From: Planctomycetota bacterium
Lineage (GTDB): Bacteria; Planctomycetota; Phycisphaerae; Phycisphaerales; SM1A02
Assembly: GCA_022566535.1 (NCBI GenBank)
Contig: JADFIR010000001.1
Coordinates: 62,001 to 126,000, forward strand
DNA: 64,000 nt
Direction of reading: 5' to 3'
Shown: positions 46,434 to 62,664 of the stretch, one piece after another
Layout of the letters: each line of letters begins with the position of its first letter
Position numbering within the stretch: position 1 is the first letter of the stretch
The notes under the pieces: model-generated
Told to the model about the DNA's origin: nothing
The model's database searches: none
Seen by the model: the letters and a program-made list of their open reading frames with translations, nothing else
Program-made: the position numbers and the translations under genes

Positions 46434-46484
46434 GACCCGGGTCTTCCTCGTCCCGACAGGTCGGGACTCGTCAGACCCGGCTTC
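46434..46484. repeat. Dispersed 51-bp hairpin repeat, copy 1 (minus orientation)
   Basis: In reverse complement it differs from copy 2 (57072-57122) by one base. Inner stem GTCCCGAC/GTCGGGAC with a CT loop; outer stem CCGGGTCT/AGACCCGG fully paired. A further partial copy (CGTCAGACCCGGCTTCG) follows at about 46498-46514. It lies between tatD and the permease gene. Confidence 0.75.
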
Positions 46485-46572
46485 GTCGCAGCGGACTCGT
46501 CAGACCCGGCTTCGGGGGGGACGGGGGGATAGTGCAGGTTCGGGTAGGATTGCCGCGCGGCGGTGCGAGGTC

Positions 46573-55051: not shown

Positions 55052-55747
55052 ATGCCGAAGATTCTGATCTACGGCACAATTGTGGTGATTTTCCTGGCGA
55101 TGATTCCGCCGGCGGTGATCGCGTGGGCGCGGGCGGTCAACTCCTCGCAGCCGCGGATCCATCTGATTCAGGACATGGACAACCAGCCGAAGTTTCGGGC
55201 ACAGCACGCGAATGCGCTGTTCGCCGACGGGCGGGCGATGCGGCCGCCGATCACTGGAACAGTGGCCCGCGGGCGACTAAACGAGGATGATCATTATTAT
55301 CGCGGCATTAGTAACGGGCAATGGGCCGCGACCTTCCCGCCGCAGGTGCCCCTCACCATGGACCTGCTGCAGCGCGGCCGGGAGCGTTTCAACATCTACT
55401 GCCAGCCGTGCCACGGTCTGGCTGGGTACGGTGACGGCATGGTCAACAAGCGGGCCATGGTGCTGATGAATCTCGGTGTCAACGGGACAACGTGGGTACA
55501 GCCCAAGAGCGTTCACGAACAGCAGATCCGCGAGCAGCCCGTCGGCCAATACTTCAATACGATCACCAACGGGGTTCGGAACATGCCCGCGTACGGCCCG
55601 CAGATCCCGGTCGCGGACCGCTGGGCGATCGTGGCTTATGTCCGGGCGCTGCAACGCAGCCAAAACGCTCGACCTGATGATGCGCCCCCGCAGCAGCGAG
55701 TGCAGCTTCAATCGGTCAGCGCTCAAATGAGGAATGATCGGCCGTGA
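55052..55747 (+). CDS. actE: Alternative complex III monohaem cytochrome ActE
   Basis: 231 residues. An N-terminal hydrophobic anchor (~5-25) precedes a class I cytochrome c domain: GRERFNIYCQPCHGLAG with one CxxCH, and NMPAYGPQIP, whose Met is the likely second haem ligand. QVPLTMDLLQRGRERFNIYC is the usual approach. Known role: docks on ActA and hands electrons to the oxidase; in some species it is a lipoprotein, which is not clear here. The stop overlaps the actF GTG start. Confidence 0.9.
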   Translation: MPKILIYGTIVVIFLAMIPPAVIAWARAVNSSQPRIHLIQDMDNQPKFRAQHANALFADGRAMRPPITGTVARGRLNEDDHYYRGISNGQWAATFPPQVPLTMDLLQRGRERFNIYCQPCHGLAGYGDGMVNKRAMVLMNLGVNGTTWVQPKSVHEQQIREQPVGQYFNTITNGVRNMPAYGPQIPVADRWAIVAYVRALQRSQNARPDDAPPQQRVQLQSVSAQMRNDRP

Positions 55748-57030
55748 CACCCGCCGACATCACCAACGAGAACCGCTATCTGGGCGAGCTGGTCCCGAAG
55801 ATCTGCCGCTATGCGGGCTTGGGTGGATTGGCGTTGCTGGCGGCCAGCGTGGTGCTCGGCTGGGCCGGCGAAGCGGGCCTGGAGCGATTCCTTCGGTCGT
55901 ACCTGGTGGCGTTCTTCTTCGTGCTGAGCCTGTCGCTGGGCGGGCTGTTCTTCGTGCTGCTTCAGCATTTGACCCGGGCCGGGTGGAGCGTGGTGGTCCG
56001 CCGTATCGCCGAGGGACTGGCCGACAATCTCAAATGGCTATGGATTCCGTTCATCCCGATCCTGGTGGCGGTGTGGACCGGCCACCTCTACGACTGGGCC
56101 GATCCCAGCAGCCTATCCGAGGCCGAGTGGGCGCTCTTCCAGCACAAGGAGCCATTCCTCACCCCCTGGTTCTGGACGATTCGAGCAGCGGTCTATTTCG
56201 GGGTCTGGGCGTGGCTGGCGAGGTTCTTCGTGAACCGATCGGTGCAGCAGGACGCGACCGGCGACCCGCAGACGACGGCGCGCATGCAGTCGGTCGCCGC
56301 CCCCGGCATGATCCTTTATGCCCTGACGCAGAGCTTCGCCGCGGTGGACTGGATCATGACGCTGGAGTTCGCGTGGTACAGCACGATGTTCGGCGTGTAC
56401 TTCTTCGCGGCTTCCACCTGCGGGGCCTTTGCGGCCATGATCATCATCTTCTATCTCTTGCAGCGGTCCGGGCGACTGACGAATGTCATCACGACCGAGC
56501 ATTATCACGACCTGGGCAAGCTGCTGTTCGCCTTCGGCGTCGTGTTCTGGGCGTACATCGCCTACAGCCAGTACATGCTGATCTGGTATGCCAACATTCA
56601 GGAAGAAACGATCTGGTTCGTCATCCGCCAACTCGGTGGGTGGAAGAGCATGAGTATCTTTCTGATCCTCGGGCATTTCGCCGGCCCATTCCTTATCCTG
56701 ATCTCGAGGTATCCCAAGCGATGGAAGGGCGTGCTGGCGATTGGGGCCGCGTGGATGCTTGGGGTGCATTTCATCGACCTCTATTGGCTGGTCATGCCGG
56801 CAATCCCGGCCGATCTCATTCATTCGGTGACGACGTATTCACAACTGGTGACGGAATTCAAGGCGTATGGAGCGGAGTATGACCTGCACTGGCGTGTGTT
56901 CGACGTGATGTGCCTGCTGGGGATGCTCGGCGTGTTTGTGGCGATGGCGGCCTGGAGCATGCGCAATCGATCGCTCGTTCCTGAAAAGGACCCGCGGCTT
57001 GCTGAGTCGCTGGCGTTCGAGAATTATTGA
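55744..57030 (+). CDS. actF: Alternative complex III membrane subunit ActF
   Basis: 428 residues from GTG 55744 in a GTGA overlap. About ten membrane segments with the ActC/ActF-type lines FFFVLSLSLGGLFFVLLQHLTRAGWSVVVRR, KEPFLTPWFWTIRAAVYF, TLEFAWYSTMFGVYFFAASTCG and YFEYTHKF-like absent (that line belongs to coxC). LLFAFGVVFWAYIAYSQYMLIWYANIQEE is also characteristic (regions only). Known role: proton-translocating or quinol-site partner of ActC. After its stop comes a 152-bp gap filled with three kinds of repeat, so the second half of the operon may be transcribed or translated independently. Confidence 0.9.
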   Translation: MTPADITNENRYLGELVPKICRYAGLGGLALLAASVVLGWAGEAGLERFLRSYLVAFFFVLSLSLGGLFFVLLQHLTRAGWSVVVRRIAEGLADNLKWLWIPFIPILVAVWTGHLYDWADPSSLSEAEWALFQHKEPFLTPWFWTIRAAVYFGVWAWLARFFVNRSVQQDATGDPQTTARMQSVAAPGMILYALTQSFAAVDWIMTLEFAWYSTMFGVYFFAASTCGAFAAMIIIFYLLQRSGRLTNVITTEHYHDLGKLLFAFGVVFWAYIAYSQYMLIWYANIQEETIWFVIRQLGGWKSMSIFLILGHFAGPFLILISRYPKRWKGVLAIGAAWMLGVHFIDLYWLVMPAIPADLIHSVTTYSQLVTEFKAYGAEYDLHWRVFDVMCLLGMLGVFVAMAAWSMRNRSLVPEKDPRLAESLAFENY

Positions 57031-57040
57031 GGAGCAAGAC

Positions 57041-57070
57041 ATCAAGGCATCAAGGCACCAAGGCAACGAG
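57041..57070. repeat. Tandem AAGGCAyC octamer array
   Basis: ATCAAGGC-ATCAAGGC-ACCAAGGC-AACGAG: three and a half copies of an 8-bp unit directly after the actF stop. Same class as 4306-4338 and 61201-61235. Confidence 0.55.
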
Positions 57071-57071
57071 C

Positions 57072-57122
57072 GAAGCCGGGCCTGACGAGTCCCGACCTGT
57101 CGGGACGAGGAAGACCCGGGTC
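57072..57122. repeat. Dispersed 51-bp hairpin repeat, copy 2
   Basis: GAAGCCGGGCCT ... AGACCCGGGTC with inner stem GTCCCGAC/GTCGGGAC. The outer stem CCGGGCCT/AGACCCGG has one mismatch, unlike copies 1 and 3. Lies between actF and the small membrane gene. Confidence 0.75.
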
Positions 57123-57133
57123 ATAAAGGCATC

Positions 57134-57181
57134 TAACCCCTAACCCCTAACTCCTAGCCCCTAACTCCTAACCCCTACTCC
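57134..57181. repeat. Tandem heptamer array TAACCCC-type
   Basis: Nearly seven tandem copies of a 7-bp unit: TAACCCC, TAACCCC, TAACTCC, TAGCCCC, TAACTCC, TAACCCC, then TACTCC. It ends one base before the ATG at 57183 and so replaces a normal ribosome-binding region. Confidence 0.8.
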
Positions 57182-61249: not shown

Positions 61250-62155
61250 GTGTCACACGCACCCGCACACGCCCATGAGCATCCGGACTTTCTCCGGCAT
61301 CACTTCAACACGCCCAAGCAACAGTTTGAGGCGGGGAAGCTGGGCATGTGGCTGTTCCTGGCCACCGAAGTCCTGCTGTTCGGGGGACTCTTCGTCGGCT
61401 ACTCCGTCTGGCGGGGGAACCACCCGGAGATGTTCAAAGCGGGCAGTGTCTTCCTCAATACGAAGCTGGGGGCTCTCAACACAGCGGTGTTGATCCTCAG
61501 CAGCATCACCATGGCCGCGGCGGTCACCATGGCCCAACGCAACAAGCGCGGTCCGTTGATCCTTCTTCTTTCGCTGACCATCGCCGGCGCCGTCACGTTT
61601 CTCGTCGTCAAATACTTCGAGTACACGCACAAGTTTCACTTGGGCATCTACCCGGGGCTGAAGTTCTACGAAAAGCCGGCCGGGGATTCGCATACGTTGT
61701 CGGGAAGTCTGGTGAATGATGCGGGCGGTGTTGATCTTGTGCTCGTCGAAGGCACGGAACCGTTGGTGCAGGAGGTCGCCTTTGCGGACACTCCGGAGGC
61801 AGAGCCGACCACCGTGGCCCCCGCGGCGATCGGTCCGGCCGGGCTTGCCCAAGACGCGCTGGAGCCAGGCGATCGCCCGGCAGACGATGACCATGCGGAG
61901 CATCTCACGCATCCCCTGCAGGATCCGCATCGACCCGCCAACGTCCACATGTTCTTCAACATCTACTACTTGATGACCGGCCTGCACGGGGTTCACGTCG
62001 CCGCCGGCATCGGTGTGCTCACCTGGCTGCTCATTGGTGCAGCGAAGGGGCGCTTTGGCAGCGCATACTTCACGCCGGTGGACCTCGGCGGGCTGTACTG
62101 GCACGTGGTCGATTTGATATGGATTTTCCTGTTCCCGTTGTTTTACCTGATATAG
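61250..62155 (+). CDS. coxC: Cytochrome c oxidase subunit III with an enlarged loop
   Basis: 301 residues from GTG 61250. Subunit III features: FEAGKLGMWLFLATEVLLFGGLFVGY, ALNTAVLILSSITMAAAV, FNIYYLMTGLHGVHVAAGIGVL and GLYWHVVDLIWIFLFPLFYL (regions). Between segments 3 and 4 (~130-225) there is an unusual ~95-residue soluble insertion, rich in Ala, Glu, Asp, Pro and His (TPEAEPTTVAPAAIGPAG, DDDHAEHLTHP), not part of normal subunit III. Known role: stabilises subunit I and the proton uptake path. The role of the insertion is unknown. Confidence 0.9.
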   Translation: MSHAPAHAHEHPDFLRHHFNTPKQQFEAGKLGMWLFLATEVLLFGGLFVGYSVWRGNHPEMFKAGSVFLNTKLGALNTAVLILSSITMAAAVTMAQRNKRGPLILLLSLTIAGAVTFLVVKYFEYTHKFHLGIYPGLKFYEKPAGDSHTLSGSLVNDAGGVDLVLVEGTEPLVQEVAFADTPEAEPTTVAPAAIGPAGLAQDALEPGDRPADDDHAEHLTHPLQDPHRPANVHMFFNIYYLMTGLHGVHVAAGIGVLTWLLIGAAKGRFGSAYFTPVDLGGLYWHVVDLIWIFLFPLFYLI

Positions 62156-62200: not shown

Positions 62201-62251
62201 GAAGCCGGACCTGACGAGTCCCGATTCGTCGGGACGAGGAAGGTCCGGGTC
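62201..62251. repeat. Dispersed 51-bp hairpin repeat, copy 3
   Basis: GAAGCCGGACCT ... AGGTCCGGGTC with inner stem TCCCGA/TCGGGA. The outer stem CCGGACCT/AGGTCCGG is fully paired, although two pairs differ from copy 1: both sides changed. Lies in the 125-bp gap between coxC and coxD. Confidence 0.75.
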
Positions 62252-62280: not shown

Positions 62281-62664
62281 ATGACTGATACGACTCCATC
62301 ACCGCAAGAAACGACCGAGCATCACAGCGTCGGGCACATCGTCCCGGTGCGGATCCTCGCCGCGACGGGCATTGCGCTGCTGATTCTGACGATTCTCACC
62401 GTATGGGTCGCGGGGTTCGACCTGGGCAACCTGAATATCTGGGCCGCCCTGGCCATCGCGGCATTCAAAGGATCGCTGGTAGTGCTCTTCTTCATGCACC
62501 TGCGGTACGATCGGCCGTTCAACGGTGTCGTATTCGTAACTTCTTTGGCCCTCGTCGCCTTGTTCATCAGCTTCGCGTTGACGGACACCAAGGAATACGC
62601 GCCGGACATCCTGCCGGGCGACGCGACGGAAGTCCAGAAGCAACTGGCTGAAGTCCAGCCGTGA
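62281..62664 (+). CDS. coxD: Cytochrome c oxidase subunit IV-like (prokaryotic) membrane protein
   Basis: 127 residues. A polar head with HHSVGHIVPVRIL, then three membrane segments (~28-48 LAATGIALLILTILTVWVAG, ~53-75 LNIWAALAIAAFKGSLVVLFFMHL, ~83-102 VVFVTSLALVALFISFAL). The IAAFKGSLVVLFFMHLRYD line is the signature of caa3/bb3-type subunit IV. Ends with a soluble acidic tail. Known role: small structural subunit near subunit I. Its stop overlaps the next start (TGATG). Confidence 0.85.
   Translation: MTDTTPSPQETTEHHSVGHIVPVRILAATGIALLILTILTVWVAGFDLGNLNIWAALAIAAFKGSLVVLFFMHLRYDRPFNGVVFVTSLALVALFISFALTDTKEYAPDILPGDATEVQKQLAEVQP

Follow-up and report, generated by a model that had tools for sequence, protein, structure and literature searches.

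The three 51-nt hairpins of the analysed stretch of DNA (64,000 nt; here called the window) belong to a dispersed family of imperfect palindromes that are very likely REP elements. Judged from sequence and structure modelling, these elements would be non-autonomous and spread in trans by a RAYT transposase (HUH, single-tyrosine, TnpA-REP type) acting on single-stranded DNA. The window genome is labelled G000 below, while sister and related genomes are labelled G001, G002, G006, G015, G033 and G089. All three copies were found where a preliminary description had placed them (Table 1). The 8-bp outer stem assigned to them there is perfect in copies 46434 and 62201, whereas in copy 57072 one pair is broken, a C.A mismatch (GGGCC against GACCC). 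Two double-sided changes in the outer stem between copies 46434 and 62201 (CCGGGTCT/AGACCCGG versus CCGGACCT/AGGTCCGG) were also recovered as described.

Table 1. Hairpin copies in the window and the features surrounding them.
Feature	Position	Strand	Remarks
Hairpin (REP) copy 1	46434..46484	-	GTC subtype; between divergent TatD-like and amino-acid permease-like gene starts
Partial duplicate of the 5' half, adjoining copy 1	46492..46512	-	
actF-like gene, upstream of copy 2	55744..57030	+	ORF; name from the preliminary description
Short AAGGCATC-type repeat tract harbouring copy 2	57036..57071	+	likewise at many GTC-subtype copies
Hairpin (REP) copy 2	57072..57122	+	GTC subtype, one C.A stem mismatch; 42 nt past actF stop, 61 nt ahead of next gene
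coxC-like gene, upstream of copy 3	61250..62155	+	
Hairpin (REP) copy 3	62201..62251	+	ACC subtype; between coxC stop (62155) and coxD start (62281)
coxD-like gene, downstream of copy 3	62281..62664	+	

As RNA, the three copies fold with -27.6, -32.7 and -32.7 kcal/mol (z -2.7, -4.4 and -4.8). In their internal loop, one C-G pair (G-C in some copies) separates two tandem G.A/A.G mismatches, with the layout ...CU-GA-C-GA-G[stem]C-GA-G-GA-AG... in RNA letters. This core (CTGACGAG...CGAGGAA) is similar to that of a degenerate hammerhead ribozyme, and a catalytic or protein-binding RNA of this kind was weighed, as the letters hold CUGANGA and a G-C-closed second stem. A hammerhead, however, has three stems around CUGANGA...GAAA; here the third stem is missing, the second stem is followed by GAG instead of GAAA, and relatives show free variation of the core between TGA and GAA. 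Searches of Rfam at gathering and permissive thresholds returned nothing relevant to the hairpin, neither a hammerhead nor any other family, and the ribozyme reading is exceedingly improbable. Directly 3' of copy 2 and ahead of the next gene lies a telomere-like CTAACCCC/CTAACTCC repeat tract (57133-57175), whose length differs among sister species.

The preliminary description held that the hairpins are not a product of chance, and indeed a 75-bp query identified a dispersed family at 29 places in the 3.36-Mb genome. The covariance-model search that it had proposed, using a model built from 30 copies, located 37 distinct places in G000 at E < 1e-5 and found the family in sister genomes too. 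The G000 copy counts, which derive from sequence searches, comprise about 29 full-length copies and shorter variants. Three same-genus sister genomes carry at least 33-38 copies each, and the family is present in 26 of the 151 genomes searched with the covariance model, per-genome counts being lower bounds because no more than 39 candidates were scored in each. Two outer-stem subtypes, GTC/GAC and ACC/GGT, occur in combination with the inner tips CGA/TCG, GCC/GGC and shorter ones. Stem cells are paired in 97.5% of cases over 30 copies, versus 19-49% for slid partners, and in 97.7% over 86 copies. Inverted, BIME-like pairs occur as well (for example, C46:10988+/11060-). The family thus has the multi-copy, scattered, mainly extragenic and imperfectly palindromic character by which REP elements are recognised. 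At several loci, one half of the element was seen to be tandemly duplicated beside full copies (L010:2583-2610, L012:2473-2501, L075:2776-2840, L115:3512-3634 and next to copy 1 in the window), which points to slippage at the hairpin or to one-sided events there.

A RAYT/IS200-like transposase had been named as a possible partner, and this hint was borne out in relatives, where RAYT genes have copies of this hairpin on either side. In G015, a 173-aa RAYT ORF (L082:3345-3866) is located between the inverted hairpin pairs 3208+/3277- and 3853+/3923-, with an ABC-transporter gene and an EPSP-synthase-like gene as neighbours; beside this RAYT, the one whose neighbourhood was inspected, no tnpB partner was found. 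Homologues with 45-55% identity to the G015 protein exist in G001 (three genes), G006, G033 and G089. All of these genes, including that of G015, have model hits on both sides at distances of up to about 200 bp, mostly as inverted pairs, and the arrangement spans the sister species G001 and four related genera. H98, H100, W133 and Y154 are invariant in 30 RAYT sequences, which provides the HUH motif and the single catalytic tyrosine of this transposase type. Pfam Y1_Tnp was matched by 17 of the 30 members and NCBIfam REP_Tyr_transpos by 20 at E < 0.01; the G015 protein matched both models weakly and reached 22.4 bits against the curated REP_Tyr_transpos model, under the cut-off of 80. The first solved structure matched by the RAYT profile is 4er8, the E. 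coli TnpA-REP in complex with a REP hairpin, and the same entry is the top Foldseek match (E 6.7e-5) of an AlphaFold model with a pLDDT of 87.8. Further sequence features are a YI..H Y motif, a [TMN]H[VLA]H HuH motif and an N-terminal LPGDxRG[FW]RSR...HSSGDY...PPP block.

A close RAYT gene is absent from the G000 assembly. A decayed one is present on C46 as a 21-residue stretch of 67% identity (L016:2393-2455, minus strand) that adjoins an inverted REP pair, and the same place in G001 is occupied by an intact, REP-bracketed RAYT gene. The simplest reading of these sequences would be that an ancestor had a RAYT gene most of which has since been lost from the G000 lineage. The eight Pfam Y1_Tnp genes of G000 were ruled out as partners, as the element was not found within 1.5 kb on either side of any of them. 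The closest gene of the RAYT clade kept in G000 (C24:184736) is more distant and is flanked by a different palindrome. It forms part of a second REPtron (C24:184677-185373; L108), in which the GAAGCCCACGGGCTCGAGCCCGTGGGCTTC palindrome, with a foot at both ends and a handful of copies elsewhere, is found on both sides of the gene. Copy pairs spaced by ~4 kb in three related genomes were also considered as a transposon and rejected, since the one interval examined holds ordinary groEL-dnaJ-like genes. Another inverted REP pair of G000 (C46:47687-47842) corresponds to a 685-bp stretch of G001 that contains no model hit (L151:875-1560).

A scan of named genomes yielded 80 RAYT loci, nearly all labelled Planctomycetota, a few of them being genomes already included in the earlier searches. 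With a strict descriptor, TGA facing GAA within a stem six or more pairs long, 80 hairpins were found within 300 bp of a RAYT gene (1.61 per kb) versus three farther off (0.02 per kb), an 80-fold enrichment; controls with random trinucleotide pairs gave a median of 0. The hairpins follow a common plan, in which the foot A[AC]GCC is followed by a stem of freely variable sequence, TGA, a tip, GAA and the matching stem. Though absent from the search descriptor, the foot is found in 68 of 71 RAYT-flanking hairpins. These comprise 22 stem sequences, which vary by lineage, and in most of them the first base of the tip pairs with the last. Ahead of the inner stem, most copies read CTGA, with GTGA, ATGA and TTGA also occurring. 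The conserved unpaired 5' GT[AG]G tetranucleotide by which REPs are also recognised is absent, and the unpaired foot is instead A[AC]G before CC. Hairpins fitting the strict descriptor occur at 28 of the 80 RAYT loci; at the remaining 52 none was found, and some of these bear other palindromes such as GAAGCCCACGGGCTCGAGCCCGTGGGCTTC.

Comparison of sister species revealed limited movement and internal exchange. The site of the copy at C69:4558, which sits within a AAGGCATC repeat tract, is empty in three sister species. The 22 other sites examined, which were picked for comparison because they hold copies, are all occupied in G001 as well, and recent movement therefore appears to be rare. An ordinary MITE, or the terminal inverted repeat of an IS moved as double-stranded DNA, would equally be short, palindromic and dispersed and would leave an empty site. 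No clear target duplication was seen there, however, a judgement which the repeat tract hampers; moreover, the linked transposase is of the HUH/Y1 type, which works on single-stranded DNA, and the hairpins flank it on both sides as inverted pairs, so that a double-stranded route is very unlikely. The dispersed family and the RAYT bracketing bear out the earlier suggestion that a palindromic element has been copied. Short tracts of AAGGCATC-like 8-bp repeats surround many GTC-subtype REPs, as at 57036-57071 and 57123-57132 in the window and at L009 2530-2640. Such repeats also occur without REPs, and tract length varies between species; a target preference is possible.

Between species, the inner arms differ together with the loop, as one block, at eight of the 19 comparable sites, among them those of all three window copies, while the flanks retain about 95% identity and the outer-stem subtype is unchanged throughout. 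Block exchange of the inner stem fits gene conversion between copies of the same subtype, not stepwise compensatory mutation. The covarying outer-stem difference between copies 1 and 3, which had been taken to indicate either selection on the fold or copying, is a difference between two subfamilies.

Gene calling with a self-trained codon model gave a coding density of 0.89 and placed 33 of the 37 G000 copies between genes (binomial P about 3e-28). Copies between co-directional genes are oriented 11 to 7 in G000 and 15 to 13 in G001, that is, without bias, and neither terminator-like sites nor T-tracts were found on hairpin copies. The alternative that the hairpin is a cis-acting RNA of the respiratory operon, setting mRNA 3' ends or shielding upstream segments with its fold under RNA selection, draws on the stable RNA folds, on the two copies that lie between co-directional operon genes and are retained there in sister species, and on reports that E. 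coli REPs affect mRNA stability and termination (PMC6006769). It is nevertheless unlikely, given that most copies are located elsewhere in random orientation to genes, that signs of termination are lacking, that in two of the four species the copy at 57072 has a mismatched stem (C.A in G000 and another mismatch in G002), that no Rfam family was matched and that the inner arms were swapped as blocks. Fold selection, understood as base-by-base compensation within an RNA, is thus not upheld. Since the copies are extragenic, unoriented and block-exchanged in their inner stem, their covariation would rather reflect copying and recognition by the transposase. Nothing sets the two copies of the act-cox operon apart from the remaining ones, and they are most likely passengers; by analogy with E. 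coli REPs, they may incidentally affect the ends or the stability of mRNA. Four REP copies were seen in frame inside conserved genes: L013:2507-2557 (class II D/K/N aminoacyl-tRNA synthetase), L026:2577-2625 (MetRS-type synthetase), L074:3046-3100 (2-oxoacid dehydrogenase E2 linker) and L075:2742-2840 (aconitase). They add peptides such as QAGPDES... or EAGPELREGPGRSEGPGRS, and those of L013 and L026 are kept in G001, with the tip swapped in one.

A close known counterpart of the REP/RAYT arrangement proposed here is the E. coli REP/BIME system with TnpA-REP (RAYT group 2; PDB 4er8), in which the REP requires its tag and unpaired mid-stem bases (PMC8266576). Both systems share an unpaired 5' tag, conserved mid-stem mismatches, intergenic dispersal, inverted pairs, a REP-bracketed RAYT and the same transposase fold. 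They differ in the foot (GTAG in E. coli, A[AC]G before CC in the planctomycete family), in the mismatch (AA/GC versus TGA/GAA, a tandem G.A), in the protein motifs (DHLH...YIHYNP versus YI..H and the N-terminal LPGDxRG[FW]RSR...HSSGDY...PPP block) and in the planctomycete copy number of only about 30-40. Published REP tags are GT[AG]G or CGTC (PMC3733652). The repeats bearing them are likewise short tagged palindromes in dimers, with subfamilies of differing stems and loops; the planctomycete 5' tag, however, is neither GTAG nor CGTC, and whereas CGTC repeats are said to be without transposases, this family has one (PMC3733652). REPINs also share inverted REP pairs as the likely mobile unit, while most planctomycete copies are single and pairs are a minority (PMC3116915).

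The nearest described relative is class 3 of TnpA-Y1, a small class from Planctomycetes and Acidobacteria with atypical hairpins and the foot CnGA (PMC6006769). Shared features are the phylum, a similar protein length (about 178 aa), W[A] and REPtron-like, non-GTAG flanking hairpins. The published class 3 Y motif, YV[VI][AENY]EQ, is not found in the planctomycete alignment, which reads YI..H; the HuH motif is NHVH in class 3 and [TMN]H[VLA]H here, and where CTGA occurs in the planctomycete hairpin, it stands at the inner-stem base (PMC6006769). On these comparisons, foot and RAYT motifs look distinct from the published classes and the pairing of transposase and hairpin looks undescribed; no paper describing the combined foot, loop and RAYT was found in the open-access literature. 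It is somewhat probable that the family represents an unclassified, Planctomycetota-wide type of REPtron, in which RAYTs of one clade, distinguished by their N-terminal block and Y motif, are paired with REPs that have an A[AC]GCC foot and a TGA/GAA loop; the REP stem would co-diversify with the transposase, and the tips would be gene-converted.

In the proposed mechanism, the GA-rich strand would be the one recognised by RAYT, the foot would act as guide and recognition tag, analogous to the GTAG of E. coli REPs, and the tandem G.A loop of TGA/GAA may serve as a structural landmark in the way of the E. coli stem mismatches. Inner tips would be exchanged between copies by gene conversion. The cognate RAYT of G000 may have been lost or may be missing from the assembly, in which case the family is probably fixed in this genome. 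With these findings, a non-GTAG type from Planctomycetota would join the REP/RAYT systems, and its 22 natural stem versions, which are linked to sequenced transposases, provide data on how a single-stranded DNA transposase reads foot, stem and mismatch. As covariation among dispersed hairpins can arise by copying and block exchange, it is by itself no sign of RNA function.
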